Source: Aplectana chamaeleonis (Eukaryota > Nematoda > Chromadorea > Rhabditida > Cosmocercidae). From it: a stretch of DNA of 64,000 bases. The position numbers were made by a program, and so were the translations under genes. The DNA lies in assembly GCA_029168955.1 (NCBI GenBank), contig JAPDOI010000976.1, positions 172,501 through 236,500 on the forward strand, given 5' to 3'. Under the pieces are notes generated by a model. It saw nothing but the letters and a program-made list of their open reading frames with translations. It was not told the origin of the DNA and made no database searches. Positions 18,497 through 35,424 of this stretch are shown piece after piece; position 1 is the stretch's first letter, and every line of letters starts with the position of its first letter.

Positions 18497-21400
18497 GGTT
18501 TGCAGAGTAAGCAGGACTTTATCGATAGTGAGCAGGACCTCAGCGGGAGTGTGCAGGACATCATAGAGAATGCGCAGGTCCCCGGTGGGAGTGTGCAGGA
18601 CGTCACAGAAAGTGTGCAGGACCCGAATGGGAGTGCGCAGCTCGTCACAGAAAGTGTGCAGGACCCGAATGGGAGTGTGCAGCACGTCACAGAAAGTGTG
18701 CAGGACCCGAATGAGAGTGTGCAGCACGTCACAGAAAGTGTGCAGGACCCCCGTGGAAGTGTGCAGGACTTTACAGAAAGTGCGCAGGACCCGAATGGCA
18801 GTGTGCAGGACGCCATAGAAAGTGTGCCGGCCCCCGACGGGAGTGTGCAGGACGTCACAGAAAGTGTGCAGGACCCGAATGGGAGTGCGCAGCTCGTCAC
18901 AGAAAGTGTGCAGGACCCCGGCGGGAGTGTGCAGGACGTCACAGAAGGTGTGCAGGACCCCAGTGGAAGTGTGCAGGACTTCATAGAAAGCGTTCAGGAC
19001 CCGAATGGCAGTGTGCAGGATGTCATAGAAAGTGTGCAGGACCCCGGCGGAAGTGCGCAGGACGCCACAGAAAGTGCGCAGGACCCCAGTGGGAGTGTGC
19101 AGGACGTCATAGAAAATGCGCAGGTCCCCGGTGGGAGTGTGCAGGACGTGACAGAAAGATTTGCAGGACCCAAATGGGAGTGTGCAGGACGTCATAGAAC
19201 GTGTGCAGGACCCCGGCGGGAGTGTGCAGGACGTCACAGAAAGTGTGCAGGACCCGAATGGGAGTGTGCAGTACGTCATAGAAAGCGTCCAGGACCCAAA
19301 TGGGAGTGTGCAGGACGTCAAAGAAAGTGTGCAGGACGCCAGCGGGAGTGTGCATGACGTCACAGAAAGTGTGCAGGACCCGAATGGGAGTGTGCAGCAC
19401 GTCACAGAAAGTGTGCAGGACCCCGGCGGGAGTGTGCAGGACGTCACAGAAGGTGTGCAGGACCCCAGTGGAAGTGTGCAGGACTTCACAGAAAGCGTTC
19501 AGGACCCGAATGGCAGTGTGCAGGACGTCATAGAAAGTGTGCAGGACCCCGGCGGGAGTGTGCAGGACGCCACAGAAAGTGCGCAGGACCCCAGTGGGAG
19601 TGTGCAGGACGTCATAGAAAGTGTGCAGGACCCCGGCGGGAGTGTGCAGGACGTCACAGAAAGTGTGCAGGACCCGAATGGTAGTGTGCAGGACGCCATA
19701 GAAAGAGTGCAGGAACCCGGCGGGAGAGTGGAGGACGTCATAGAAAGTGGGCAGGACCCGAATGGGAGTGTGCAGCACGTCACAGAAAGTGTGCAGGACC
19801 TGTATGGGAGTGTGCAGCACGTCACAGAAAGTGTGCAGGACCCCGGCGGGAGTGTGCAGGACGTCACAGAAGGTGTGCAGGACCCCAGTGGAAGTGTGCA
19901 GGACGTCATAGAAAGCGTTCAGGACCCAAATGGGAGTTTGCAGGACGTCATAGAAAGTGTGCAGACCCCGGCGGGAGTGTGCAGGACGTCACAGAAAGTG
20001 TGCAGGACCCGAATGGGAGTGTGCAGTACGTCATAGAAAGCGTCCAGGACCCAAATGTGAGTGTGCAGGAAGTCATAGAAAGTGTGCAGGACCCCGGCGA
20101 GAGTAAGCAGGACGTCACAGAAAGTGTGCAGGACCCGAATGGGAGTGTGCAGGACGTCATAGAAAGCGTTCAGGACCCAAATGGGAGTGTGCAGGACGTC
20201 ATAGAAAGTGTGCAGACCCCGGCGGGAGTGTGCAGGACGTCACAGAAAGTGTGCAGGACCCCAGTGGAAGTGTTCAGGACGTCATAGAAAGTGTGCAGGG
20301 ACCCCGGCGGTAGTGTGCAGGACGTCACAGAAAGTGTGCAGGACCCGAATGGGAGTGTGCAGCACGTCACAGAAAGTGTGCTGGACCTGAATGGGAGTGT
20401 GCAGAACGTCACAGAAGGTGTGCAGGACCCCATTGGAAATGTGCAGGACTTTATCGAAAGCGTTCAGGACCCAAATGGGAGTGCGCAGGACGTCATAAAA
20501 AGTGTGCAGGACCTCAGTGGGAGTGTGCAGGACGTCATAGAAAGTGTGCAGGACCCGAATGGGAGTGTGCAGCACTTCACAGAAAGTGTGCAGGACCCCG
20601 GCGGGAGTGTGCAGGACGTCACAGAAGGTGTGCAGGACCCCAGTGGAAGTGTGCAGGACTTCACAGAAAGCGTTCAGGACCCGAATGGCAGTGTGCAGGA
20701 CGTCATAGAAAGTGTGCAGGACCCCGGAGGGAGTGTGCAGGACGCCACAGAAAGTGCGCAGGACCCCAGTGGGAGTGTGCAGGACGTCATAGAAAGTGTG
20801 CAGGACCCCGGCGGGAGTGTGCAGGACGTCGCAGAAAGTGTGCAGGACCCGAATGGGAGTGTGCAGGACGCCATAGAAAGTGTGCAGGACCCCGGCGGGT
20901 GTGTGCAGGACGTCATAGAAAGTGTGCAGGACCCGAATGGGAGTGTGCAGCACGTCACAGAAAGTGTGCAGGACCCGTATGGGAGTGTGCAGGACGTCAT
21001 AGAAAGTGTGCAGGACCCCGGCGGGAGTGTGCAGGACGTCACAGAAAGTGTGCAGGACCCGAATGGGAGTGTGCAGGACGCCATAGAAAGTGTGCAGGAC
21101 CCCGGCGGGAGTGTGCAGGACGTCATAGAAAGTGTGCAGGACCCGAATGGGAGTGTGCAGCACGTCACAGAAAGTGTGCAGGACCCGTATGGGAGTGTGC
21201 AGCACGTCACAGAAAGTGTGCAGGACCCCGGCGGGAGTGTGCAGGACGTCACAGAAGGTGTGCAGGACCCCAGTGGAAGTGTGCAGGACGTCATAGAAAG
21301 CGTTCAGGACCCAAATGGGAGTTTGCAGGACGTCATAGAAAGTGTGCAGGACCCCGGCGGGAGTGTGCAGGACGTCATAGAAAGTGTGCAGGACCCGAAT

Positions 21401-24400
21401 GGGAGTGTGCAGTACGTCATAGAAAGCGTCCAGGACCCAAATGTGAGTGTGCAGGAAGTCATAGAAAGTGTGCAGGACCCCGGCGAGAGTAAGCAGGACG
21501 TCACAGAAAGTGTGCAGGACCCGAATGGGAGTGTGCAGGACGTCATAGAAAGCGTTCAGGACCCAAATGGGAGTGTGCAGGACGTCATAGAAAGCGTTCA
21601 GGACCCAAATGGGAGTTTGCAGGACGTCATAGAAAGTGTGCAGGACCCCGGCGGGAGTGTGCAGGACGTCATAGAAAGTGTGCAGGACCCGAATGGGAGT
21701 GTGCAGTACGTCATAGAAAGCGTCCAGGACCCAAATGTGAGTGTGCAGGAAGTCATAGAAAGTGTGCAGGACCCCGGCGAGAGTAAGCAGGACGTCACAG
21801 AAAGTGTGCAGGACCCGAATGGGAGTGTGCAGGACGGCATAGAAAGCGTTCAGGACCCAAGTGCGAGTGTGCAGGACGTCATAGAAAGTGTGCAGACCCC
21901 GGCGGGAGTGTGCAGGACGTCACAGAAAGTGTGCAGGACCCCAGTGGAAGTGTTCAGGACGTCATAGAAAGTGTGCAGGACCCCGGCGGTAGTGTGCAGG
22001 ACGTCACAGAAAGTGTGCAGGACCCGAATGGGAGTGTGCAGCACGTCACAGAAAGTGTGCAGGACCTGAATGGGAGTGTGCAGGACGTCACAGAAGGTGT
22101 GCAGGACCCCATTGGAAATGTGCAGGACTTTATCGAAAGCGTTCAGGACCCAAATGGGAGTGCGCAGGACGTCATAAAAAGTGTGCAGGACCTCAGTGGG
22201 AGTGTGCAGGACGTCATAGAAAGTGTGCAGGACCCGAATGGGAGTGTGCAGCACTTCACAGAAAGTGTGCAGGACCCCGGCGGGAGTGTGCAGGACGTCA
22301 CAGAAGGTGTGCAGGACCCCAGTGGAAGTGTGCAGGACTTCACAGAAAGCGTTCAGGACCCGAATGGCAGTGTGCAGGACGTCATAGAAAGTGTGCAGGA
22401 CCCCGGCGGGAGTGTGCAGGACGCCACAGAAAGTGCGCAGGACCCCAGTGGGAGTGTGCAGGACGTCATAGAAGGTGTGCAGGACCCCGGCGGGAGTGTG
22501 CAGGACGTCGCAGAAAGTGTGCAGGACCCGAATGGGAGTGTGCAGGACGCCATAGAAAGTGTGCAGGACCCCGGCGGGAGTGTGCAGGACGTCACAGAAG
22601 GTGTGCAGGACCCCAGTGGAAGTGTTCAGGACTTCACAGAAAGCGTTCAGGACCCGAATGGCAGTGTGCAGGACGTCATAGAAAGTGTGCAGGACCCCGG
22701 CGGGAGTGTGCAGGACGCCACAGAAAGTGCGCAGGACCCCAGTGGGAGTGTGCAGGACGTCATAGAAAGTGTGCAGGACCCCGGCGGGAGTGTGCAGGAC
22801 GTCATAGAAAGTGTGCAGGACCCGAATGGGAGTGTGCAGCACGTCACAGAAAGTGTGCAGGACCCGTATGGGAGTGTGCAGGACGTCATAGAAAGTGTGC
22901 AGGACCCCGGCGGGAGTGTGCAGGACGTCACAGAAAGTGTGCAGGACCCGAATGGGAGTGTGCAGGACGCCATAGAAAGTGTGCAGGACCCCGGCGGGAG
23001 TGTGCAGGACGTCATAGAAAGTGTGCAGGACCCGAATGGGAGTGTGCAGCACGTCACAGAAAGTGTGCAGGACCCGTATGGGAGTGTGCAGCACGTCACA
23101 GAAAGTGTGCAGGACCCCGGCGGGAGTGTGCAGGACGTCACAGAAGGTGTGCAGGACCCCAGTGGAAGTGTGCAGGACGTCATAGAAAGCGTTCAGGACC
23201 CAAATGGGAGTTTGCAGGACGTCATAGAAAGTGTGCAGGACCCCGGCGGGAGTGTGCAGGACGTCATAGAAAGTGTGCAGAACCCGAATGGGAGTGTGCA
23301 GTACGTCATAGAAAGCGTCCAGGACCCAAATGTGAGTGTGCAGGAAGTCATAGAAAGTGTGCAGGACCCCGGCGAGAGTAAGCAGGACCTCACAGAAAGT
23401 GTGCAGGACCCGAATGGGAGTGTGCAGGACGTCATAGAAAGCGTTCAGGACCCAAATGGGAGTGTGCAGGACGTCATAGAAAGTGTGCAGACCCCGGCGG
23501 GAGTGTGCAGGACGTCACAGAAAGTGTGCAGGACCCCAGTGGAAGTGTTCAGGACGTCATAGAAAGTGTGCAGGACCCCGGCGGTAGTGTGCAGGACGTC
23601 ACAGAAAGTGTGCAGGACCCAAATGGGAGTGTGCAGCACGTCACAGGAAGTGTGCAGGACCTGAATGGGAGTGTGCAGGACGTCACAGAAGGTGTGCAGG
23701 ACCCCATTGGAAATGTGCAGGACTTTATCGAAAGCGTTCAGGACCCAAATGGGAGTGCGCAGGACGTCATAAAAAGTGTGCAGGACCTCAGTGGGAGTGT
23801 GCAGGACGTCATAGAAAGTGTGCAGGACCCGAATGGGAGTGTGCAGCACTTCACAGAAAGTGTGCAGGACCCCGGCGGGAGTGTGCAGGACGTCACAGAA
23901 GGTGTGCAGGACCCCAGTGGAAGTGTGCAGGACTTCACAGAAAGCGTTCAGGACCCGAATGGCAGTGTGCAGGACGTCATAGAAAGTGTGCAGGACCCCG
24001 GCGGGAGTGTGCAGGACGTCACAGAAGGTGTGCAGGACCCCAGTGGAAGTGTGCAGGACGTCATAGAAAGCGTTCAGGACCCTAATGGGAGTTTGCAGGA
24101 CGTCATAGAAAGTGTGCAGGACCCCGGCGGGAGTGTGCAGGACGTCATAGAAAGTGTGCAGGACCCGAATGGGAGTGTGCAGTACGTCATAGAAAGCGTC
24201 CAGGACCCAAATGTGAGTGTGCAGGAAGTCATAGAAAGTGTGCAGGACCCCGGCGAGAGTAAGCAGGACCTCACAGAAAGTGTGCAGGACCCGAATGGGA
24301 GTGTGCAGGACGTCATAGAAAGCGTTCAGGACCCAAATGGGAGTGTGCAGGACGTCATAGAAAGTGTGTGCAGACCCCGGCGGGAGTGTGCAGGACGTCA

Positions 24401-24727
24401 CAGAAAGTGTGCAGGACCCCAGTGGAAGTGTTCAGGACGTCATAGAAAGTGTGCAGGACCCCGGCGGTAGTGTGCAGGACGTCACAGAAAGTGTGCAGGA
24501 CCCGAATGGGAGTGTGCAGCACGTCACAGAAAGTGTGCAGGACCTGAATGGGAGTGTGCAGGACGTCACAGAAGGTGTGCAGGACCCCATTGGAAATGTG
24601 CAGGACTTTATCGAAAGCGTTCAGGACCCAAATGGGAGTGCGCAGGACGTCATAAAAAGTGTGCAGGACCTCAGTGGGAGTGTGCAGGACGTCATAGAAA
24701 GTGTGCAGGACCCGAATGGGAGTGTGC
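18497..24727. repeat. Array 1, 42-bp satellite (left part)
   Basis: About 148 tandem units of 42 bp. Each unit is a dimer of two related 21-mers: GTGCAGGACGTCATAGAAAGT and GTGCAGGACCCGAATGGGAGT. The 21-mers share the first nine bases and the terminal AGT. Variants at the middle bases (CCGAAT, CCCGGCGGG, CCCAGTGGA, CTCAGTGGG) combine into higher-order blocks. A diagnostic GGCGGTAGTGTG unit recurs at about 20311, 21990, 23585 and 24468, spaced near 40, 38 and 21 units. The left edge (18497-18560) is diverged. Because 42 is a multiple of three and the unit lacks stops, long open frames exist on both strands; I do not regard them as genes. The array is interrupted by a retrotransposon and resumes at 35425. 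Confidence 0.97.
24724..24727. other. Target-site duplication, left copy (GTGC)
   Basis: GTGC directly before the 5' LTR is repeated directly after the 3' LTR (35425-35428). Removing the element and one GTGC rejoins a regular array-1 unit (...GGGAGTGTGCAGCACTTCAC) that occurs intact elsewhere in the array, for example near 23835. Confidence 0.85.
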
Positions 24728-24971
24728 AACTTTGCGATTCTTTGCTCGCTCGCCGCTGTTGTTTATGGTAGGAGAGGTGATACGACGTTGTCGTCTATGT
24801 TATGAGAAGGCTTATCACCATTTCGTGAATCTATGCTTGCTCACCACCGTTGTTTATATTAGAAGAAATGATAGGACATTGTTGATTTTTATGTTGTGAG
24901 AAGGGTCTATTCTTTTGATTTCTATGTTATATTCTCTTGTTTTCTATGTTATGAGAAAGGCCTGTTTTTGG

Positions 24972-24978
24972 TATAAAA
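24972..24978 (+). promoter_or_regulatory. TATA box of the LTR promoter
   Basis: TATAAAA in a GGTATAAAAGCCGC context. A start site 25-30 bases downstream, near 25000, would be usual, which leaves an outron-like pyrimidine-rich stretch (25015-25065) before the SL1 sequence. The same box lies at 35195-35201 in the 3' LTR. Confidence 0.65.
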
Positions 24979-25108
24979 GCCGCTGCTTTCAATATGTAGC
25001 GCATATCTTCTGATTTGTTTCTTCTTTTGATCATTTCTCATTCTCGCAACGTTTCTTACTAGTTGCATTGGTTTCACAACGTACATTTGTTTCGATACTA
25101 TTCAATAA

Positions 25109-25130
25109 GGTTTAATTACCCAAGTTTGAG
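25109..25130 (+). promoter_or_regulatory. SL1 spliced-leader sequence embedded in the 5' LTR
   Basis: All 22 bases match the nematode SL1 exon (GGTTTAATTA...AAGTTTGAG), which is highly conserved across the phylum. The next bases are GCTGCTCGTG, not the GTAAAC-type donor that follows the leader in SL RNA genes, and no Sm-site-like sequence follows. So this is the exon alone, as found at the 5' end of trans-spliced mRNAs. It lies 137 bp downstream of the TATA box and 71 bp before the LTR end, in the part of an LTR where R and U5 are expected. Confidence 0.93.
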
Positions 25131-25201
25131 GCTGCTCGTGGTTGTGATATAAATCGTTATACGCTCCACTGTCTTGTAAGAACCACCGACTATCCGCTTT
25201 A

Positions 25202-25219
25202 TGGTGCATCAGTCACAAG
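25202..25219 (+). other. Primer binding site
   Basis: TGGTGCATCAGTCACAAG begins immediately after the LTR. TGG pairs with the CCA end of a tRNA. The first nine bases (TGGTGCATC) would suit the acceptor end of a glycine tRNA, but the remainder fits less well, so the tRNA identity is a guess. Confidence 0.7.
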
Positions 25220-25379
25220 GAGAATAGAAGAACAGAGGTACGATTTGGGCTCTACTTTTTTTGGATTCGCTGCGCTGTTGGAACTTCAATTTTCTTTATT
25301 TGTGGAAGCACTCGCTTTTTACTTTTGATTATTTTTGCGAAAATTTTTTCATCTTTTGGTGTCCTGTTCACTTCTACCC

Positions 25380-26294
25380 ATGTCCGGCCCCATTTCCCTC
25401 AAATCGCAGAAAGGGCTACTCACGAGGTACTGTAACAACTTGACTGCTATTATCACAACGTATGAGGGAGACGAATCATTGCGCAACGCATCATTAGAGG
25501 ATGAAAGCACTTCGCAACGAATCTTGGCAGTAGTATTGGAGCTTAAAGCTACATCTGAACTAGTTCGTAATAATCTCGCCTTATTTGTTGACTCGATAGA
25601 TTCTCTTGCGGATTCGCTCACTGAGGAGCAAGAGGCGCAAGCACTCAACTATATGGATAAAGCGCATATTGCGCTGGACCGTGCCGAGACACTGGCCATT
25701 CAAATTGAAGCCAGACGCCGGAGTGCATGGGAACACAGCCAACCACAAGGCACCAATTCGCGGACGCTCACACACCAAATGAGAGACCAAGGTCACTTGG
25801 AAATGAATACTCCAAAATTACCGGCTATCCCGATCCCGATTTTCGACGGTAAAATATGGGATTTCGTCAACTTTTGGACACTATTCAACGCTAACGTCCA
25901 TAGTCAACCTCTAACGAAGTTACAAAAGTTCAACTATTTGCTTCAATCGCTTCGAGGTGAAGCTAGAAATTTGGTAAGACGCTACGCGATTACAGAGGAG
26001 AATTACGAACCAGCCATTGACCTTTTGCAGAAAAAGTATGGAAATGACGCACGACTTATTAGCTGCCTGCAATCTCGCTTGGAAAGTCTCTCGGCAGAAA
26101 AACCGACGATTCAGGCACAGAGGAAGCTCATCGAAAGCGTGATTCCCATAGTGACACAACTCGCAAAATTAGGGGTCAATCTAGATGGTTCATATCAGGC
26201 ACAAAAACTGCTATCAAAGTTTGCGACAAGGATTCAGCGCAAAGTTCTGGAAAACGCATGGACCAGGAATTGGACGAGGGCCAATGGAAAATAG
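25380..26294 (+). CDS. gag: Gag, BEL/Pao type (DUF1759-like capsid)
   Basis: 304 codons from the ATG at 25380. An in-frame upstream ATG at 25335 exists, but its hydrophobic lead looks like leader sequence. The product would be the structural polyprotein that packages the element's RNA in cytoplasmic particles. The middle part (PKLPAIPIPIFDG, WDFVNFW, LQSLRGEARNLV, AIDLLQKKYGN) matches the conserved pattern of the gag-associated DUF1759 family of BEL/Pao elements. The nucleocapsid zinc knuckles are not in this frame; they lie just downstream in the pol frame. The frame stops at TAG 26292-26294, directly after GGA AAA. The pol frame (-1) overlaps this end, and a slip on the A4 run at 26288-26291 would continue into it. 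Whether that is programmed or a one-base loss cannot be told from sequence. Confidence 0.88.
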   Translation: MSGPISLKSQKGLLTRYCNNLTAIITTYEGDESLRNASLEDESTSQRILAVVLELKATSELVRNNLALFVDSIDSLADSLTEEQEAQALNYMDKAHIALDRAETLAIQIEARRRSAWEHSQPQGTNSRTLTHQMRDQGHLEMNTPKLPAIPIPIFDGKIWDFVNFWTLFNANVHSQPLTKLQKFNYLLQSLRGEARNLVRRYAITEENYEPAIDLLQKKYGNDARLISCLQSRLESLSAEKPTIQAQRKLIESVIPIVTQLAKLGVNLDGSYQAQKLLSKFATRIQRKVLENAWTRNWTRANGK

Positions 26295-29200
26295 AGACCA
26301 TCGTAAGCGACCTTGATACCTCCATCGCAACAGAAGAGCGCATTAATGAAATGGTGAAGCAAGACTCACCACCACCACCAACTCGCAGCGACACAGGGAA
26401 TACTTCCAGCTACAAATCGCAACGTAAATTATTCCCTTGCATGTTCTGCAACTCTTCAGATCACAAATCCGCTGCGTGCCCAAGGCTTCGCACAATTGCA
26501 GACCGGCGCAACTTCCTTCAGGACAATAGGAGGTGTCTCAATTGTGGAAGACAGGGACATTTAGTACGCGAGTGTACCAAAGAAGGGTGCAGACTCTGTA
26601 ACGGAAAGAAACACAATCACACGCTGTGCCCACAAAAAGTAGAATTGGGAAGGATGCCTCAATCACCAAACGCAACGTCTTGGCCAGCACGACCCAAGGT
26701 ACCAACACCTGCGCTGACCAGGCACTCAGCCACGACGCAACAGTTCTCTGGTAATGGAACTCAACGTCAACCTCCCAGGGTTTCACAGGCTCATCCCGTA
26801 CTAGTTCAGCATGAGAGCACATCTCCCGCGGATCACGTTCCGCAGTGTGACAGCAATACGAATGCAGAGACAACCATTCTTCATAGTTGGAAGAAACCAG
26901 TGCAGACAGCACTAAAGAACGTCCTGCTTTTGACCGGAAATGCGAGAATATGGGATTCTCGACATAAGGCTTGGAGGCAGGTTGAGGTCTTGTTCGACAC
27001 GGGCGCAGATCAATCATTCATCAGCCAAAACTTCGCGGAAGACGTCGGACTCGAATGTTCAGAGACGCAGGATCTGACCTTGTACACATTCGGTTCACAG
27101 CAACCCCTTCCGACGCAGTGTGGAATGACTTTCGTGGATCTGTGGGACCAGCAGGGGAACAAACACAATCTCCGCGTATACTCCACGCCGATTCTCACTG
27201 GAAAAGGGAAGACTACTTCTCTCAGTTCGGATGATTTGGATTTCATCGCGCACCACAATATACAGCTTTCTAAAACCGAGGCTGATATTGAAGAATCAAC
27301 ACCACAGATACTGTTGGGATGCGATCAGCTGTGGACCCTGCTCGAAGTTCCTTCCCCACGTTATAGGCTACCGTCTGGGCTACTACTCATCCCATCAAAA
27401 CTCGGATATTTACTGACGGGAAGCCAAAACGTTCCGCAAAATACTCAGGACGCCAACGCAAACACTGTTCACGCTACCATGGTAACTATGGTTCAAGCTA
27501 TCACGGCTGAGGACGACGACATACAGCGCTGGGATAAGTACTGGACCATGGATTCGGCGGGCGTTTGCGAATTCACAGGCACAAAAGACGCGGAAAAGTC
27601 TGCTGTCAACGAAAAGGTATCGCAGTTCTTTGACAACACAATCGAAAAACGTAATGACGGGTATTACGTACGTTTACCATACAAGGTAGGACACCCGCCA
27701 ATACCGTGCAATAAAGCCATAGCTTTAAAACGCCTCAAAAGTGTTTTTAGCACGCTGAAATCCAATCCGCAGCTCCTGAAAGACTACAATGAGACATTCA
27801 AAGGTCAACTGGACAAAGGTATCATTGAGGAGATTCCAAACGATAAACCTTTAGAAGGAGAGGTTCTCCACTACATTCCTCACCAGCCAGTTATCACACC
27901 GCAAAAACAAACCACGAAGCTCCGCATAGTGTTCGACGCTTCATCGCACTTTCGCAACTGTCCATCGCTTAATGACGTTCTTCATCAAGGACCTCTAATT
28001 CTGCCTGAACTGTACGCCATGTTGCTACGCTTCCGATTGTCTAGGTTCGTGATAACCTCTGATGTAGAAAAAGCTTTTCTACAGGTCCGTTTACACGAAC
28101 TAGATAGAGACGCAACTCGTTTTTTATGGGTACGAAACTTAGAGGATTCTCTCGACGAGAATAACATCGTCACGTATCGCTTCACAAGAGTGACGTTTGG
28201 ACTCAACGTCTCCCCTTTTCTCCTAGGAGCAACTATTCGGTATCACTTACGCAACGAAAGAACTGACGGTCAGTTGGAAGGTGAAATCCAAGACAACCTT
28301 TATGTGGACAATCTCATCCTAGCAGCCGAAACGAAGATTGACGCCACACACAAAGCCGCAGAATCCCGTCGCATTTTCGAGCAAATGGGTATGAATCTGC
28401 GAGAATTTCTCGCAAATGACCCGGAGGTAACTGAAGGATTACCAGAGAATGCGCAAGCGGCCGTAAAAATCCAAAAGGTTCTGGGAATTACATGGGACAG
28501 CACGTCGGATACACTCTACATCAGGTGCGATTTTCCCATAGTACCCGCCTTGACGAAACGCTTGGTCGCACGTCAAATCGCATCAATCTACGATCCTTTC
28601 GGATGGATGGTGCCACTTCTCACTAGGGCAAAACGCTTTCAGCAAGAACTGTGGAAGAAAAAATTTGCATGGGATACAATCCTACCGCAGAATCTGCAGA
28701 ACGAATGGAATGTTCTCACCACGAGCGTACATGGCTTCAAAAAGTCCTTCGATAGGAGATTCATCAGTAATCTCGCCGGAAGTAATCTGGCAGTATTCGC
28801 AGACGCAAGCGGGATCGCAATGTCAGCGTGTGCGTACATCTTCAATGGATATGAATCCACGCTAACTATGGCAAAGTGTAAGCTACCATCGATACAATCA
28901 CACACCACGATTCCGAAAATGGAAATGAATGCAATCACGCTCGCAACACGTCTGGCTTACTCCATTTTCAAAGCCATCAAGGACAGAATTGTCTCTTGTC
29001 ATCCCAATGATGAAAAATGGAATATCTATTTCTTTTCGGATTCTCAAATAGCACTCGCATGGCTTTCCTGCTCGCCCACGGACACTAGCCCTGGAGTCAT
29101 GGTTCACAATCGATTGAAGGAAATTCGACGTGTCATAGAAGCTCTTCAGTCTGAAGGGGTCGAATGCGAATTCAGATTTGTCCCGACCAATGAGAACCCA

Positions 29201-30937
29201 GCTGATGCGGGGACGCGCGGTCTTTCACGGCATCAACTAGCAGAACATACTTGGTGGAGCGGCCCGGCGTTCTTGCGCGAGCCGATCACAAACTGGACAA
29301 CACCAATACACCGAGTTAATATTGGAGAAAAACAGGACGACATCAAGGATATTGCAAATGTTTACGCATTGAGGGCTAACCCGATCTCCAACACTCCTTC
29401 TACACTGCTCGAATTGGAGCGATTCAGTTCACTGGATAAGGCAAAAAAGGTCACATCCTTAGTTTTGCTATTCATCAAAAAACTACTTCATCGACTGCCA
29501 CTGACGCGACAAAACACTATAATAGAGTATGTACCTGAGCTGAATGGATTTCCCGATTCTTTACAAGCACTGAATGCCAACGCCATGATCGCATCTCGCA
29601 GAGCGCTGATCAAAAATCATCAGAATGAGTACTTGACATCGGAGTATCGCAGATCGATGGAAAATACGCTACGCCTTTTCAGAGATGACTCGGGTATTTG
29701 GCGTTCCAAAGGTCGGATAGGGAACTCGTCCTTAGACATCGCATGTCACAACCCCATATTCATTTCTCCGAAGACAACGCTCGCTGCTCTCATCATCAGA
29801 GAGGCACATGGAACCTATCATCAAGGCATCGAGCACACAATCGCAACAATCCGCTCACAGTACTGGATTCCTAAACTACGTCAGCAAGTACGCCACGTTG
29901 TTAAGCATTGTGTCCATTGCCGCAGATTCAATGGCCTACCATACGCTTATCCGGAAACCAAGGATTTGCCGCACCGTCGTGTACTACGCTGCCGCACCTT
30001 CCAGCATGTTGGACTTGATTTCTTTGATCTGCCTCCAGTCATAGAGGAAAATGGGGAAAGAAAGATCTATGGATGCATTTTTACATGTACCGTGACCAGG
30101 CTAATACATTTGGAATTGGTACAAAGTATGTCTACTGTGGATTTTCTGAATGCCCTACGTCGATTTGTCGCAAGGAGAGGAGTCCCAGAGTCTATCACCA
30201 GCGATAATGCGCCAACATTCCTCCTCAGTGCAGAGATTTTGACTGCAGGCGCAACGACAGGGCCAATAAACGACGCAATCGCTCGTACCATCGCTCAAAA
30301 GGAAATTCAGTGGTACAATATCACACCGTACGCGCCTTGGCAAGGTGGGTTTTATGAACGCCTTGTAAAGTCTATCAAACTCGCATTATACAAATCGCTT
30401 AGAAGTAAATCGCATCGCTCACTTGACAATCTGGTAACTATTCTAACGGAAGTCGAAGCATGTTTGAATTCGAGGCCTCTCACCTACCAAGGAGAGACAC
30501 AGGAGGATCTCTGTTCAATACGCCCGATCGACTTCCTACAACGAGATCTGCTACTAACTTTGCCATACGATACTTCAAAGGCATCCAATGAAGAGGACCC
30601 AGAATACGTACCACCTGAAGCACAACGTTCGCTGGAAACAAGAAATGATGTAGAACACGCGCTTCATTCGTCGTGCAAGTTCACGGATCGGTTCTGGGAT
30701 CTTTGGCAAACCCATTATTTGACAAGCCTACGTGAATCACACAAGAAATTCATATCGAACAAACGTCATAGTCAACTCACGCCCAAAATTGGAGATGTGG
30801 TATTACTCAGTGACCCGATTGTTCCAAGAAATGCCTGGAAACTAGCACGCGTAATGACTTTCACAAAAGTTCCGATGATCAAGTTCGCGAGGTGGAACTC
30901 ATCACGTCTACGAAAAGAAAGATCAAACGACCAGTGA
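26258..30937 (+). CDS. pol: Pol polyprotein: zinc knuckles, protease, RT, RNase H, integrase
   Basis: 1559 codons from the first ATG in this frame, which is open for at least 100 nt further upstream, so translation probably enters from gag by a -1 step. Domains in order: three CX2CX4HX4C zinc knuckles (residues 61-74, 93-106, 111-124); aspartic protease with DTGA at 247-250; reverse transcriptase from about 550 with FDAS near 558 and YVDN at 682-685 (BEL/Pao often lacks the second Asp of YVDD); A17-type linker; RNase H with an FADAS motif near 849 and SDSQ further on; integrase with HHCC zinc binding (HX3H...CX2C, about 1190-1230); catalytic core D1254, D1316, E1367; and a C-terminal DUF5641-like segment. 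All catalytic residues are present. The frame loses its family-like sequence after ACA AAA at 30863-30868, where the family pattern continues in the -1 frame. Confidence 0.95.
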   Translation: MDQELDEGQWKIETIVSDLDTSIATEERINEMVKQDSPPPPTRSDTGNTSSYKSQRKLFPCMFCNSSDHKSAACPRLRTIADRRNFLQDNRRCLNCGRQGHLVRECTKEGCRLCNGKKHNHTLCPQKVELGRMPQSPNATSWPARPKVPTPALTRHSATTQQFSGNGTQRQPPRVSQAHPVLVQHESTSPADHVPQCDSNTNAETTILHSWKKPVQTALKNVLLLTGNARIWDSRHKAWRQVEVLFDTGADQSFISQNFAEDVGLECSETQDLTLYTFGSQQPLPTQCGMTFVDLWDQQGNKHNLRVYSTPILTGKGKTTSLSSDDLDFIAHHNIQLSKTEADIEESTPQILLGCDQLWTLLEVPSPRYRLPSGLLLIPSKLGYLLTGSQNVPQNTQDANANTVHATMVTMVQAITAEDDDIQRWDKYWTMDSAGVCEFTGTKDAEKSAVNEKVSQFFDNTIEKRNDGYYVRLPYKVGHPPIPCNKAIALKRLKSVFSTLKSNPQLLKDYNETFKGQLDKGIIEEIPNDKPLEGEVLHYIPHQPVITPQKQTTKLRIVFDASSHFRNCPSLNDVLHQGPLILPELYAMLLRFRLSRFVITSDVEKAFLQVRLHELDRDATRFLWVRNLEDSLDENNIVTYRFTRVTFGLNVSPFLLGATIRYHLRNERTDGQLEGEIQDNLYVDNLILAAETKIDATHKAAESRRIFEQMGMNLREFLANDPEVTEGLPENAQAAVKIQKVLGITWDSTSDTLYIRCDFPIVPALTKRLVARQIASIYDPFGWMVPLLTRAKRFQQELWKKKFAWDTILPQNLQNEWNVLTTSVHGFKKSFDRRFISNLAGSNLAVFADASGIAMSACAYIFNGYESTLTMAKCKLPSIQSHTTIPKMEMNAITLATRLAYSIFKAIKDRIVSCHPNDEKWNIYFFSDSQIALAWLSCSPTDTSPGVMVHNRLKEIRRVIEALQSEGVECEFRFVPTNENPADAGTRGLSRHQLAEHTWWSGPAFLREPITNWTTPIHRVNIGEKQDDIKDIANVYALRANPISNTPSTLLELERFSSLDKAKKVTSLVLLFIKKLLHRLPLTRQNTIIEYVPELNGFPDSLQALNANAMIASRRALIKNHQNEYLTSEYRRSMENTLRLFRDDSGIWRSKGRIGNSSLDIACHNPIFISPKTTLAALIIREAHGTYHQGIEHTIATIRSQYWIPKLRQQVRHVVKHCVHCRRFNGLPYAYPETKDLPHRRVLRCRTFQHVGLDFFDLPPVIEENGERKIYGCIFTCTVTRLIHLELVQSMSTVDFLNALRRFVARRGVPESITSDNAPTFLLSAEILTAGATTGPINDAIARTIAQKEIQWYNITPYAPWQGGFYERLVKSIKLALYKSLRSKSHRSLDNLVTILTEVEACLNSRPLTYQGETQEDLCSIRPIDFLQRDLLLTLPYDTSKASNEEDPEYVPPEAQRSLETRNDVEHALHSSCKFTDRFWDLWQTHYLTSLRESHKKFISNKRHSQLTPKIGDVVLLSDPIVPRNAWKLARVMTFTKVPMIKFARWNSSRLRKERSNDQ

Positions 30938-31521
30938 ATCTCGTGATACCCCTGGAAATCAACGACGATCCAATTTTTGTCGACGCAGCACATCAAGAAC
31001 CACAGGAGGAGCCGTCGATTACCGCCAAACCACGAGACACGCCTTCTTATAACCTTCGACCACGGAAGCCAATTAGCTATTCAGAGGATGCAGGGACGTG
31101 CAATACTATACGGAGTACGAATGTACCCTCGGGAAGCTGGTTCTTATTTCATGTAATGATTTTGTCTTTAGTCTCTACTTCCATCGCAACGCATGCAACA
31201 GAAATGAGTATGGCCTGCTCAAAATACGGGGTACGCATAGACGCCTTCACAAACGCCAGCTTTGAAATCTGTGCTGGAAATTACTGCAAATTATATACCG
31301 TCACAACGGGCATGCAAGTGAACACCTACATGGTCAAGTTCCCACCACATGTTACTCTACAAGAACATGTCGTCTTACTGAAATGGAATACACGTCAACA
31401 TCTCTCAATTATGGAGACAACATGTCCGGCTCTGAACTTCTGTGAGAACATAGACTGCAGTTTCTGTCTACCAGTCTTTTTCAATCCAGAATGCTGGCCA
31501 CGGGGAGCAATTTGCTTTTAG
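30892..31521 (+). CDS. Pol C-terminal tail and start of envelope, in a separate frame
   Basis: The frame is -1 relative to pol. The first 60 codons continue the DUF5641-like end of Pol (IKRPVNLVIPLEI) and end in the YNLRPRKP motif common just before the end of Pao-type pol or the start of env. After that comes a hydrophobic signal-anchor-like stretch (FLFHVMILSLVSTSIATHA) and a cysteine-rich ectodomain start with several Cys pairs. So this frame holds pieces of two products. The ATG at 30892 is probably not used. The frame ends at TAG 31519-31521, 31 nt after the next frame's ATG. Continuation into that frame again needs -1, at a T4 run (31516-31519). The element would need spliced or frameshifted expression, or this copy carries one-base losses. 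Confidence 0.75.
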   Translation: MELITSTKRKIKRPVNLVIPLEINDDPIFVDAAHQEPQEEPSITAKPRDTPSYNLRPRKPISYSEDAGTCNTIRSTNVPSGSWFLFHVMILSLVSTSIATHATEMSMACSKYGVRIDAFTNASFEICAGNYCKLYTVTTGMQVNTYMVKFPPHVTLQEHVVLLKWNTRQHLSIMETTCPALNFCENIDCSFCLPVFFNPECWPRGAICF

Positions 31522-33356
31522 TTCTCCTACTTTATAGCATAATCGCCCTGTTGTATCTCTGCCTCTATATGCCAATGACTATCGGAAAACCAATACGGAT
31601 CATGCTACAAGGAACAATGGTAATTGCGCTATTCTTTATGCGACTACTGAAAGGCTGTATTATATTCTTAATACGCAGAACGGTCAAGCGTAGTCGCACA
31701 AGAAGTGAACGCATCGCATCCGCACTCGCAGTTGCTGCATTAATGAGCTCCAGCGTACATTTTGGAACTTTGGCTTGCCAGCATGTAAACGTACTGGAAC
31801 ACAACACTACGATCTGCACACTATTGGATGGCAGAGAACGCTGTCATTTTGCACTCACAGAGGTTTTGAAGATCAATACCTTCCACCAAGAAGCGTGTTT
31901 ACATCTCACGCACAACTCCACATTAATAGCCAATATCAAGATTCGCTGGAAAGGCCTCTATCTCATCTGTGACCACGAGACCCTCTATTTCACTCGCTCG
32001 ACTGAACTGAAGGTAGTAGACAGTAAACGCTGTCCGCACATGGGGTCTTGTACGGGAGATAAATGCGCCGCAATCAACAGTTCCAGTGTCATCCCGGAAT
32101 TGGAACTAGGAAATTCCTACCTTGGTCGCACGAGTTGCCTCGAATCATGCGGAGGACCAGGATGTGACTGTTTCTATCTCAGCTCGGGCTGCCTCTTCTA
32201 TCGCATCTATGCTGTACCCAGAAACGACAACATCTATGAAATCTTTCGGTGTCAGCGATGGGAAGAGATGGTGAAGTTGGAAATCGTTGTTGAGCAACTT
32301 AAGGCAAAACAAGGCCCAACCCGCTTTATCAAAGCCTTCACGCCTAACGTACCACTAACATTCCCATCGTTCTTCATAACGATGACTTCCCTAACGCTAC
32401 CACCCACCCCTTCGCTTCATCAACATTTCGTGACCAACGGATATGAAACCTCTATTTGGGAAAACGACTTCACGCCGGATACCGTCTGCACGACTGTCGC
32501 ACACGCGAACACGTCAGATTGTGCGTTTCGAGACGAATGTCAATGCAGTGCGGCAGAGAATAAAGTCCACTGTGAATGCCCAAATAAGAATTTGGACACT
32601 GAATTCAACCGTGTGGAACGCAAACTTCCCATAAAGCGTGCTTCAATAGAGCTACGACGACACGCTAACGCTCCAGTAACTGCAATAATACCGCACTTGG
32701 TATCGGCTGAATTTATTGTCGAAGTGCGTCAATCCTTCGACATTGATTCGACAGCAATAATCGTCTCGCAAGACACCTGTAAGGTAGATAACAGTGCATT
32801 GCAAGGATGCTACAACTGCGCGACAGGGAGTGCAGCGAAAATTCGTTGTAAATCAAAATCGGAGACCTCCGGTGAAATTATATGCAATCGCTACGCTTTT
32901 GTAATTTCCTGCAGCCCCACGGCACCGGAATCGACTTTACGCTTTTACCTCAATAACGCTCGTCAATTACTCAACTGTACTGTTCGATGCGGAACACAAT
33001 CACACCCTTTCATCCTGGCAGGAGCTCTCAAATACATTGGAAATCCATACGCACCGCTGTTACATGCTCTGTACGGAAATAGTTCAGTGTATAACAATAT
33101 TGAGTGGCCAGATGTAGGACACATTGCAAATGTCATTTTCGATTGGTATAAGTCCCTAATTATAATGCTTGTGATCGTAGCTGCTGTTTTCTTTCTAATA
33201 TACATAGCCCTGCAAGCAACAGGCCTACGTCTTCTCAGACTGCTTTTTCGCATCATCGTAACACTGATAGGCCTACCCTTTCGCCTTGTTCTAGCACTAC
33301 TCCACGCAGTACTAAACCGTACACGGAAGGCGCAGTCACATGAAAAAGCTTTCTGA
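31491..33356 (+). CDS. env: Envelope glycoprotein, phlebovirus G2-like
   Basis: 621 codons. The N-terminus has two or three hydrophobic segments (about residues 8-27, 38-62, 75-95), then a Cys-rich ectodomain with several NxS/T sites. The motif SCGGPGCDCFYLSSGCLFYR (near 219-238) is characteristic of the phlebovirus G2-like envelope family found in nematode BEL/Pao elements. Family knowledge says this is a class II membrane-fusion protein of virion surfaces. A C-terminal membrane anchor lies near 556-578, followed by a second hydrophobic stretch and a basic tail. The ATG at 31491 is simply the first in this frame; the natural N-terminus likely lies in the preceding frame (30892-31521), so this copy of env is split by a -1 offset near 31518. 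Expression would normally come from a spliced subgenomic RNA. It is otherwise free of stops. Confidence 0.87.
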   Translation: MLATGSNLLLVLLLYSIIALLYLCLYMPMTIGKPIRIMLQGTMVIALFFMRLLKGCIIFLIRRTVKRSRTRSERIASALAVAALMSSSVHFGTLACQHVNVLEHNTTICTLLDGRERCHFALTEVLKINTFHQEACLHLTHNSTLIANIKIRWKGLYLICDHETLYFTRSTELKVVDSKRCPHMGSCTGDKCAAINSSSVIPELELGNSYLGRTSCLESCGGPGCDCFYLSSGCLFYRIYAVPRNDNIYEIFRCQRWEEMVKLEIVVEQLKAKQGPTRFIKAFTPNVPLTFPSFFITMTSLTLPPTPSLHQHFVTNGYETSIWENDFTPDTVCTTVAHANTSDCAFRDECQCSAAENKVHCECPNKNLDTEFNRVERKLPIKRASIELRRHANAPVTAIIPHLVSAEFIVEVRQSFDIDSTAIIVSQDTCKVDNSALQGCYNCATGSAAKIRCKSKSETSGEIICNRYAFVISCSPTAPESTLRFYLNNARQLLNCTVRCGTQSHPFILAGALKYIGNPYAPLLHALYGNSSVYNNIEWPDVGHIANVIFDWYKSLIIMLVIVAAVFFLIYIALQATGLRLLRLLFRIIVTLIGLPFRLVLALLHAVLNRTRKAQSHEKAF

Positions 33357-33474
33357 CAACGCATCGTTCGCAACGCTGAGATTAGAAAGCCACACAACAG
33401 TCACGAATCGCAACGCAAAAAAAAAAAACTTGTATCCTTATTTATTCACATCTAATACCGTTTTTTTTTCCTAG
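33357..33474 (+). promoter_or_regulatory. Env-ORF4 intergenic segment with a splice-acceptor-like end
   Basis: 118 bp, containing an A12 run (about 33418-33429) and ending in CCGTTTTTTTTTCCTAG directly before ATGATG of the next ORF. The T-rich tract plus TAG looks like a nematode 3' splice site, usable for cis splicing from the 5' leader or for SL trans-splicing, giving a separate mRNA for ORF4. Confidence 0.5.
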
Positions 33475-34908
33475 ATGATGACCCTTCGAGAAGAGAACGA
33501 GCAAATAATTGATCAGCTACGCTATGCGAACAACGAATTGGAGCGGACACGAGAACACTTGAACGCTACACGTCACGAACTGCATGAGACCCAACGTTCG
33601 TTGCAGAAACTACAAGAGGCTCTACCACAACTGCCACCACCAACAGTATTATATAATAGAATTGTCTCTACCTGTAAACATCTTCGTGTAGTTACTAATT
33701 CTCTGTCTAATTTTCGTAGGCGCATCCAACAGCTACGCGTTTCAGAAGAGGGTTATTCGGAACGCATCGCTGAGCTCCAAATCGTAGAAACGATGTGGGA
33801 TAAAACGCATTTCGAGCTGAAACTGATCCACACTGAACTTGGAACGCTCTTCGCGATGCCTCCTCTTCTAATCGCTACCAACGTAATCACCGAAGAAAAC
33901 TGGACTTCGATGATGACCCAGCCACAAAAAGACGACGACAATAAGAGCTTAGTTATGAATAAGGAACAACTTGAAGCCATACTCACCGATCAACTCGCAG
34001 TTCTCGAGGAATACAAAACCGTTCTTATGGAGTACCGCGAAAACATCCAGCAGGAACATCCGGAGAGATCACAAATATTTCACAACTCTGTTCTGTCATC
34101 GCTCGCGCATATACAGTCGACCGTCGAACAAAGATTCCAGACAATGATGGAACGTATGCAGCAAGACGACACAGTGACGACACTACAGTCAACGATCAAA
34201 GAAGCCGTTTCACACCTCACATCTACAATACAACACACAAACGCACATAGCAGCCGACACTCCGTCGAGGGGGAGGACGAGCAGCAGCACGTTGAAGAGT
34301 TAGTGGGAAACGAAGAAGAGTTGATCGACGAGGATGGCATCATTCGAGCAAACGCGGAGTACATGGAAGCCGTCAATGAGATTGGAGAAGAGGAGGAGGA
34401 GAATGACGACGCAATTCGCAACGCAGTCATTCAAGATCAAAGGCGCCAGCAAATCGAGAGGGAGCTGATACAGGCTAGGCAGGGATTAGCGGACCTGGAG
34501 AATATTCTCGAAGATCTTGCATGGACGCCAAAATGCGAACCGCGCAACTATCGTCGGGGATTGATCTACAAGGAGGAGGACAGATCAATCCGCTGTGTCT
34601 ACTGTGAAAGAATAGGAGATCACTTCTCCGACTCATGCCGTCACTACATGGACATAACCGAACGCCATCGCATTTTAGAAGTCACGAATCGATGCTTTGC
34701 CTGTCTCGAGGTTAGGTACGCACCGCATTACTGCCGTCGCAGTAACGCACCCTGTAACCACTGCCGAGAAAGGGGCCACCACTCGTCGACGTGCGAGCTG
34801 CCTGAACGCAGCGAAGTCTTTCATAATCGCATCCGCAGCGCAATGGCGGGAAGCCGGGAAACGAAAGAACGCATCGAAGCTCTGGAGCGTGAGCTGAGAA
34901 GCCTGTGA
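33475..34908 (+). CDS. ORF4: coiled-coil protein with C-terminal zinc knuckles
   Basis: 477 codons downstream of env, ending 42 bp before the 3' LTR. Residues 1-50 are a strongly charged heptad-like coiled coil (EENEQIIDQLRYANNELER). Further helical, charged stretches follow, with an acidic segment near 270-320 (EEEEEN). The C-terminal part has zinc-knuckle motifs: CVYCERIGDHFSDSC (CX2CX5HX4C), an irregular CFAC...HYC, and CNHCRERGHHSSTC (CX2CX4HX4C). Zinc knuckles bind single-stranded nucleic acid, so this is a likely RNA-binding accessory or gag-like protein, but it has no capsid domain that I recognise. The ATG directly follows a splice-acceptor-like sequence. Function is inferred only from composition. 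It has the same strand and the same codon style as gag-pol, and no frame breaks. Confidence 0.82.
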   Translation: MMTLREENEQIIDQLRYANNELERTREHLNATRHELHETQRSLQKLQEALPQLPPPTVLYNRIVSTCKHLRVVTNSLSNFRRRIQQLRVSEEGYSERIAELQIVETMWDKTHFELKLIHTELGTLFAMPPLLIATNVITEENWTSMMTQPQKDDDNKSLVMNKEQLEAILTDQLAVLEEYKTVLMEYRENIQQEHPERSQIFHNSVLSSLAHIQSTVEQRFQTMMERMQQDDTVTTLQSTIKEAVSHLTSTIQHTNAHSSRHSVEGEDEQQHVEELVGNEEELIDEDGIIRANAEYMEAVNEIGEEEEENDDAIRNAVIQDQRRQQIERELIQARQGLADLENILEDLAWTPKCEPRNYRRGLIYKEEDRSIRCVYCERIGDHFSDSCRHYMDITERHRILEVTNRCFACLEVRYAPHYCRRSNAPCNHCRERGHHSSTCELPERSEVFHNRIRSAMAGSRETKERIEALERELRSL

Positions 34909-34937
34909 CGAGAAAACAAAACCTCGCATTTGCCCTC

Positions 34938-34944
34938 GGGGGAG
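34938..34944 (+). other. Polypurine tract candidate
   Basis: GGGGGAG lies six bases before the 3' LTR as defined by LTR alignment and target duplication (TATCGC in between). A polypurine tract normally abuts the LTR, so either the true LTR includes TATCGC and the 5' copy lost it, or the primer end is offset. Confidence 0.6.
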
Positions 34945-34950
34945 TATCGC

Positions 34951-35424
34951 AACTTTGCGATTCTTTGCTCGCTCGCCGCTGTTGTTTATGGTAGGAGAGG
35001 TGATACGACGTTGTCGTCTATGTTATGAGAAGGCTTATCACCATTTCGTGAATCTATGCTTGCTCACCACCGTTGTTTATATTAGAAGAAATGATAGGAA
35101 ATTGTTGATTTTTATGTTGTGAGAAGGGTCTATTCTTTTGATTTCTATGTTATATTCTCTTGTTTTCTATGTTATGAGAAAGGCCTGTTTTTGGTATAAA
35201 AGCCGCTGCTTTCAATATGTAGCGCATATCTTCTGATTTGTTTCTTCTTTTGATCATTTCTCATTCTCGCAACGTTTCTTACTAGTTGCATTGGTTTCAC
35301 AACGTACATTTGTTTCGATACTATTCAATAAGGTTTAATTACCCAAGTTTGAGGCTGCTCGTGGTTGTGATATAAATCGTTATACGCTCCACTGTCTTGT
35401 AAGAACCACCGACTATCCGCTTTA
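34951..35424 (+). repeat. 3' LTR, 474 bp
   Basis: Identical to the 5' LTR except A instead of C at 35100. It is followed directly by GTGC of the target duplication and the resumed satellite. It carries the second TATAAAA (35195) and second SL1 copy (35332-35353). Confidence 0.94.
35332..35353 (+). promoter_or_regulatory. SL1 spliced-leader sequence embedded in the 3' LTR
   Basis: The same 22-base match as in the 5' LTR, in the sense orientation of the element. In the 3' LTR it would be present near the 3' end of genomic RNA if polyadenylation is downstream, giving homology to an SL1-capped 5' end. Confidence 0.93.

Follow-up and report, generated by a model that had tools for sequence, protein, structure and literature searches.

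The BEL/Pao element and its two copies of SL1

The window (the whole stretch of 64,000 nucleotides analysed here, positions 172501-236500 of contig JAPDOI010000976.1 in the 1.04-Gb genome assembly of the nematode Aplectana chamaeleonis) contains an LTR retroelement at 24729-35424, which is inserted into a 42-bp satellite array. Two different 42-bp satellites occupy 18511-24728, 35425-37404 and 38570-63998, and the insertion splits the first of the two. The features of the element are as follows:

24724-24728, no strand: target-site duplication GTGCA, left copy, read by eye; breaks the 42-bp repeat
24729-25201, + strand: 5' LTR, 473 bp, from alignment with the 3' LTR
24972-24979, + strand: TATAAAAG, 137 nt upstream of SL1
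25109-25130, + strand: exact SL1 22-mer of the 5' LTR, by sequence match; proposed 5' end of R
25148-25153, + strand: TATAAA, possible poly(A) signal after SL1
25202-25212, + strand: primer-binding site TGGTGCATCAG, directly 3' of the 5' LTR (TGGTGCATCGGC in other families)
25383-26294, + strand: gag-like ORF with DUF1759 (Pfam)
26258-30937, + strand: pol ORF with DUF1758 protease, reverse transcriptase (RT), Pao Peptidase_A17, integrase and DUF5641 (Pfam, scanned in two pieces)
30892-31521, + strand: ORF with no Pfam match above the cut-off
31491-33356, + strand: env-like ORF with a Phlebovirus_G2 fusion domain, E 1.5e-95 (Pfam)
33475-34908, + strand: 477-aa ORF after env, with no Pfam match above the cut-off
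34938-34944, + strand: GGGGGAG, putative polypurine tract just 5' of the 3' LTR
34952-35424, + strand: 3' LTR, from alignment
35332-35353, + strand: exact SL1 22-mer of the 3' LTR, by sequence match
35425-35429, no strand: target-site duplication GTGCA, right copy, read by eye

With Peptidase_A17, RT and integrase domains, two LTRs, a target-site duplication and a primer site, the element is a BEL/Pao LTR retrotransposon, a grouping that is also backed by Peptidase_A17 trees and by protein matches. Over the 400 residues searched, pol is closest to Pao-type proteins of strongylid nematodes (Haemonchus and Ancylostoma among them), with 55% identity to the top match; a zinc knuckle in the pol ORF scores just under the Pfam cut-off. 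The G2 fusion domain is of the phlebovirus type found in env-bearing nematode BEL elements (1.5e-95). Tas and Cer7 are such env-bearing BEL/Pao elements, and in general layout, rather than by sequence comparison, the window element shares with their type a Pao-type pol, LTRs and a phlebovirus-like fusion glycoprotein. The primer site presumably fits the 3' end of tRNA-Gly(GCC); a search for the primer tRNA with ARAGORN, in the window and 60 loci, gave none. Purine-rich ends also precede the 3' LTR in several other SL1-bearing families. The alignment of the two LTRs, in which boundaries and differences were read by eye, contains one difference, and the insertion is therefore probably young.

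The spliced leader was searched for as GGTTTAATTACCCAAGTTTGAG (22 nt), and the 22/22 match in both LTRs described in the initial annotation was recovered on the + strand at 25109-25130 and 35332-35353. As had been stated, it is in sense orientation relative to the coding frames. Nowhere else does the window come within 3 mismatches of SL1, and no such site arose in 100 shuffles. Across the 1.04 Gb, approx. 0.00014 exact matches are expected from the base composition of the window, 1024 are observed, and the reversed SL1 pattern, used as a control, occurs 0 times; a chance origin, already judged negligible from the window, is thus rejected. No SL1 match was found in IMG/VR, from which records near this genome are possibly excluded. 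Places with at most one mismatch number 3951, of which 2927 have one mismatch. Among the latter, 191 differ at position 1, the base that reverse transcriptase might miss next to the cap, compared with a mean of approx. 130 for each other position (LTRs and SL RNA-like loci mixed). Same-strand pairs approx. 10.4-11 kb apart, paired by eye, also occur with a leader that differs from SL1 at base 1 only: four have A (C11:3839743/3850173, C82:852782/863208, C98:1391736/1402169, C276:1723139/1733552), one has T (C54:1915164/1926128), and one has C (C540:990895/1001582). Base 1 of the leader may be freer than the others.

SL1-bearing LTR families and their relatives

Fifty-five SL1 sites were inspected, comprising the window, 48 from the list of exact matches and 6 from a list of SL1+GTAA; they include LTRs, dispersed SL RNA-like loci and single sites, the last of which are not all classified. 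All 18 same-strand SL1 pairs examined (that of the window and 17 fetched from a longer list) proved to be LTR pairs, their alignments being 352-835 bp long. In 17 of the 18, TGGTGCATC lies at or across the 5' LTR end, and the L033/L034 pair has only TGCATCGGC. Genome-wide, SL1 is followed by TGGTGCATC at a distance of 60-90 nt in 38 places, 91-121 nt in 27 and 122-152 nt in 24, and the reversed-pattern control gives 0 in each of the three ranges. Judged by eye from the downstream sequence, these 89 places represent roughly 30 LTR families, some of which are mutually related. Within 60 nt on either side of SL1, most of 16 representatives are pairwise no more alike than the shuffled range (mean identity 56%, sd 5, maximum 68%), the exceptions being L050/L068 (73% downstream) and L020/L060 (71% upstream). 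SL1 itself is exact across the 16, and the Peptidase_A17 domain is only approx. 35-60% identical to that of the window; the exactness of SL1 is inflated, as most families were picked by exact SL1.

Another 11 SL1-bearing elements (L105-L115) were sampled; 10 of them have Peptidase_A17 in their pol pieces, and the eleventh, L110, showed only an env with phlebovirus G2. Many members of one BEL/Pao branch carry exact SL1 in their LTRs. The initial annotation had considered such an arrangement unusual, which does not hold: many BEL/Pao families have it here, and the account of Brugia malayi describes a similar pattern (PMC7181701). Shorter elements with SL1-bearing LTRs 1.4-2 kb apart are also present (C2:3231547/3232977, L007/L008; C7:2382571/2384559, L116, which gave no Pfam match) and are probably non-autonomous relatives of longer families. 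Related LTRs may differ by 1-3 bases in length directly after SL1 (C331, C1099 and C1118; C26 and C1504; C48, C88 and C1591), which could be junction slippage or ordinary indels.

The first Peptidase_A17 tree has a 100/99 branch that separates 10 SL1-bearing rows (a nearly identical pair among them) from 30 further BEL rows, which had been selected by Pfam score. From 1073 candidates, 150 BEL matches were scored, and for the 13 on contigs C1-C22 no exact SL1 was seen by eye within 10 kb among the matches listed. A sample independent of SL1 was obtained with the window's pol as query, which gave 56 loci. When these were compared with the SL1 places of the 60-90 and 91-121 nt ranges and with the listed exact matches on the same contigs, 19 proved to have a same-strand exact SL1 at 2.9-4.4 kb upstream; matching by eye with the 122-152 nt range added C832, C1732 and C1931, giving 22. 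Thirteen stretches in which the LTR was expected were fetched from the 37 pol-picked loci outside the first SL1 lists. One (C1208) has exact SL1 and no primer-site match in the fetched piece; two (C1991, C1015) have SL1 altered only by a first G to T; six (C13, C1386, C36, C1376, C1667, C1415) have a primer site and no SL1, the best match having 9-11 mismatches; and four (C947, C1732, C23, C1329) have neither in the piece, the SL1 of C1732 lying just outside. The tally for the 34 of 56 loci covered is 23 with exact SL1, 2 with one mismatch, 6 without and 3 uninformative. None of the readable loci falls between 1 and 9 mismatches.

The six loci without SL1 fall into three LTR types, and C13 and C1376/C1667 from among them were included in a wider tree. 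There, a 100/99 clade comprises the 10 SL1-bearing rows together with 3 SL1-less and 2 unlabelled ones, and C1376/C1667 (with C947) stand beside L108/L111/C1208. The earlier reading of SL1 as a mark of the whole clade was dropped, as SL1-less relatives lie inside it. The topology needs two SL1 changes, of which well-supported branches force only one, and it shows gain or loss of SL1 within one clade. The existence of six relatives without SL1 implies that the leader is not essential. It had been proposed that relatives without SL1 would favour a one-off accident; such relatives do exist, with a primer site in place, but the accident does not follow from them.

Placement and origin of the leader

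The position of SL1 can be compared with that of conventional signals. The SL1-less family L117/L120/L121 is, by its sequence layout, a conventional LTR with a TATA box, AATAAA, a U5 box and a primer site: TATATAAAG is followed by AATAAA 34 nt after the start of the box, then by CCGCGTGGCAG and the primer site TGGTGCATCGGCC. In the SL1-bearing L026, read by eye, SL1 is followed directly by GTTCAATAAA, then by CCGCGTGGCAGC and the primer site; the whole stretch after SL1 reads GTTCAATAAATTGTACACTAACCGCGTGGCAGC up to the primer site. SL1 ends here 4 nt before AATAAA and a box that matches the one in the SL1-less family. The comparison of the two families thus puts SL1 at the expected start of the RNA. 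This one family pair, compared by eye, suggests that SL1 occupies the expected 5' end of R.

Across 26 SL1-bearing families (including L030 and L036, whose fetched pieces contain no primer site and which are therefore unproven as LTRs), NATAAA begins within 20 nt after SL1 in 10, compared with a mean of 0.54 and a maximum of 4 in 2000 shuffles, and at 20-40 nt in none of the 26. A purine comes directly after SL1 in all 26 families, and in 23 of them it is G. The leader is followed by GT in 16 of the 26, by GC in 5 and by GA, AT or AG in 5, and all 24 places of the 122-152 nt range have GT or GC there; positions +3 to +6 have no clear donor consensus in the 26 families. The statement that no donor GT follows SL1 therefore stands for the window, where GC follows, but not for the 16 families with GT.

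The U5 box GCGTGGC lies within 58 nt after SL1 in 13 of the 26 families, mostly as CCGCGTGGC. It was seen between SL1 and the primer site in L020, L026, L050, L060 and others, and it is present in the SL1-less L117 (C13:2813104) as well. We take the box to be complementary to the anticodon arm of tRNA-Gly(GCC), whose 3' end would fit the primer site, hinting at a possible second primer contact. The 330 nt examined in each of 17 representatives were screened for a TATA-like box, defined by no more than 1 mismatch to TATAAAAG. Five representatives (the window, L066, L054, L026 and L012, with L066 closely related to L054) have it 120-180 nt upstream of SL1, 4 have it in another place, and 8 lack it. 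TATAAAAG itself lies 137 nt (window) and 123 nt (L066) upstream. If transcription started 30 nt after the TATA-like box, an outron of roughly 90-140 nt would result.

Two sources of the leader may be considered, a trans-spliced RNA and an SL RNA gene. The window has no Rfam SL RNA match at gathering scores, in line with the earlier remark that the rest of an SL RNA gene is missing. Rfam gave 6 matches on 10 loci, all below the cut-offs, the SL1 RNA match in L053 scoring 26.7 bits against a cut-off of 75. Dispersed SL RNA-like loci do exist in the genome. They have exact SL1, often with GT(A) next, and form two groups, one of 12 loci (L001, L004, L006, L011, L014, L015, L035, L037, L039-L041, L047) and one consisting of L005 and L053; they could be either SL RNA genes of the host or members of a large family of pseudogenes. 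One locus of each group was folded. In the minimum-energy structures, SL1 is base-paired to the sequence that follows it, as it is in SL RNA, although neither complete fold surpasses those of shuffles, and one centroid lacks the SL1 hairpin. Both groups share RTRCGRMGCA at -46/-45 (12 of 14 loci; pattern chosen by eye). In the 17 LTR representatives, the best scores for this motif equal those of shuffles (-1.06 vs -1.06). An SL RNA gene or a derivative of it inside the LTR is thus rejected for want of both the Rfam match and the motif. The SL1 of the LTRs most likely derives from an RNA that had been trans-spliced and not from an SL RNA gene, and entry through reverse transcription, as proposed in the initial annotation, is the best-supported origin, given the missing SL RNA match, the 17 LTR families without the motif and the position of SL1 near the expected 5' end of R.

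Some sites outside LTRs (L028, L043, L048 and single sites such as L018 and L038) look like SL1-headed retrocopies. L028 and L048 have unlike upstream flanks and common downstream sequence beginning at SL1, and in L043 additional bases separate SL1 from the common GTATATGG, as from an alternative acceptor.

A proposed role of trans-splicing in the replication cycle

The association of SL1 with PAO elements and a trans-spliced origin have already been proposed for Brugia malayi, for which Foster et al. 2020 (PMC7181701) describe 120 SL1 sequences outside SL RNA genes, 60 of them within 1 kb of PAO elements, with occasional same-strand pairs, and infer integrated trans-spliced PAO RNAs. The elements studied here are alike in having SL1 22-mers near Pao elements. 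Beyond what that account reports of these sites, SL1 is placed here relative to the TATA box, poly(A) signal and primer site, families with and without SL1 are compared, and a role in strand transfer is proposed (PMC7181701). In flatworms, SL-bearing retrocopies and SL-like loci on LTR and LINE elements are described, with dinoflagellate work cited, and there too the leader is thought to reach genomic DNA via reverse-transcribed trans-spliced RNA; in contrast to the present case, partial leaders occur in 597 discarded loci, and the passages on these loci do not describe LTR architecture (PMC12582326). In C. elegans, the gypsy-type element Cer1 yields a spliced 2.4-kb RNA that carries SL1 and an 8-kb genomic RNA that does not (PMC3315495). 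Cer1 thus resembles the window element in that an LTR element RNA is SL1 trans-spliced, but its SL1 is added to the RNA, whereas that of the window element is encoded in the LTR (PMC3315495). In the openly licensed literature searched, we found neither a report that R begins with SL1 nor a comparison with SL1-less relatives nor a recycling model.

The following cycle may be proposed. Transcription would begin upstream of SL1, in some families at the TATA box, and the first approx. 100 nt of the element RNA would form an outron, which the host would replace with SL1 by trans-splicing at the boundary between SL1 and the following purine. The SL1-headed genomic RNA would be reverse transcribed from the tRNA primer, and the first-strand stop DNA, ending in the complement of SL1, would pair with the SL1 copy of the 3' LTR, so that R would comprise SL1 and the sequence after it as far as the poly(A) site. 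The finished DNA would have SL1 in both LTRs, with the outron persisting as the end of U3, and, after its entry from a trans-spliced RNA, SL1 would be rewritten from the host SL RNA in each cycle. Directly observed are SL1 in both LTRs, its place close to a poly(A)-like signal and ahead of the primer site, its occurrence in families with unrelated flanks and its absence from some relatives; that the genomic RNA is trans-spliced, that R begins at SL1 and that SL1 is rewritten is what we infer. That SL1 was captured from a trans-spliced RNA and lies at the 5' end of R appears fairly probable; that it is re-copied from host SL RNA every cycle and supplies the homology for first-strand transfer is a more tentative proposal, to which we give somewhat less than an even chance.

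Rewriting would explain how SL1 stays exact despite diverged pol (approx. 40-58% identical to that of the window among pol-picked loci) and randomised flanks, and why it is either whole or absent, a pattern that it would fit more easily than would selection on an encoded leader, which could equally account for the exactness. Several observations count against the model. The acceptor TTTGAG that it requires is presumably a poor nematode 3' splice site, many families lack a TATA-like box, the six SL1-less pol-picked relatives indicate that SL1 is dispensable, and the frequent GT after SL1 is left unexplained. The escape of the Cer1 genomic RNA from trans-splicing also weighs against it.

The strongest alternative, which we regard as unlikely, is that SL1 was captured once and has been inherited as an encoded sequence under selection, for example as a translation leader, with the genomic RNA starting at the TATA box and not trans-spliced. 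The SL1-bearing elements in the trees do fall in one BEL/Pao clade, and both the escape of Cer1 genomic RNA and the presumably weak acceptor at the end of SL1 are in its favour; however, 22 bases would have to remain fixed while the flanks randomise, SL1-less relatives inside the clade imply that the leader is dispensable, and 10 of the 26 families have a poly(A)-like signal immediately behind SL1, as expected near the start of R. SL sequences are promoter elements of Ascaris SL RNA genes, and SL1 might accordingly be an internal promoter or initiator derived from such genes, with transcription starting at its first G. This would likewise place the start of R at SL1 and would suit the 8 of 17 representatives without a recognisable TATA box, but the -46/-45 motif (chosen by eye) is absent from the 17 LTR representatives, where its mean equals that of shuffles, and TATAAAAG at 137 and 123 nt upstream (window and L066) points to an upstream start, which leaves the promoter a very improbable explanation. 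A slightly poorer prospect still is a cis-splice donor exon, with SL1 followed by GT or GC, for spliced env or accessory messages: the GT of 16 families and the GC of 5 others among the 26, together with GT or GC throughout the 24 places of the 122-152 nt set, speak for it, and GA, AT or AG in 5 of 26 and the lack of a clear donor consensus at +3 to +6 speak against it. An accidental one-time insertion with no role is scarcely credible and was rejected, for although SL1-headed retrocopy-like sites show that SL1 does enter DNA here, its comparable LTR place in many families with unrelated flanks contradicts an accident.

If the trans-splicing model is true, a retroelement uses host trans-splicing within its replication cycle, and R, which normally results from the element's own promoter and poly(A) site, begins with a host leader. 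The model would offer a testable answer to the question of how LTR elements cope with hosts that replace the 5' ends of RNAs, and SL1 in the LTR would be a sequence mark by which the use of trans-splicing may be traced across nematodes.
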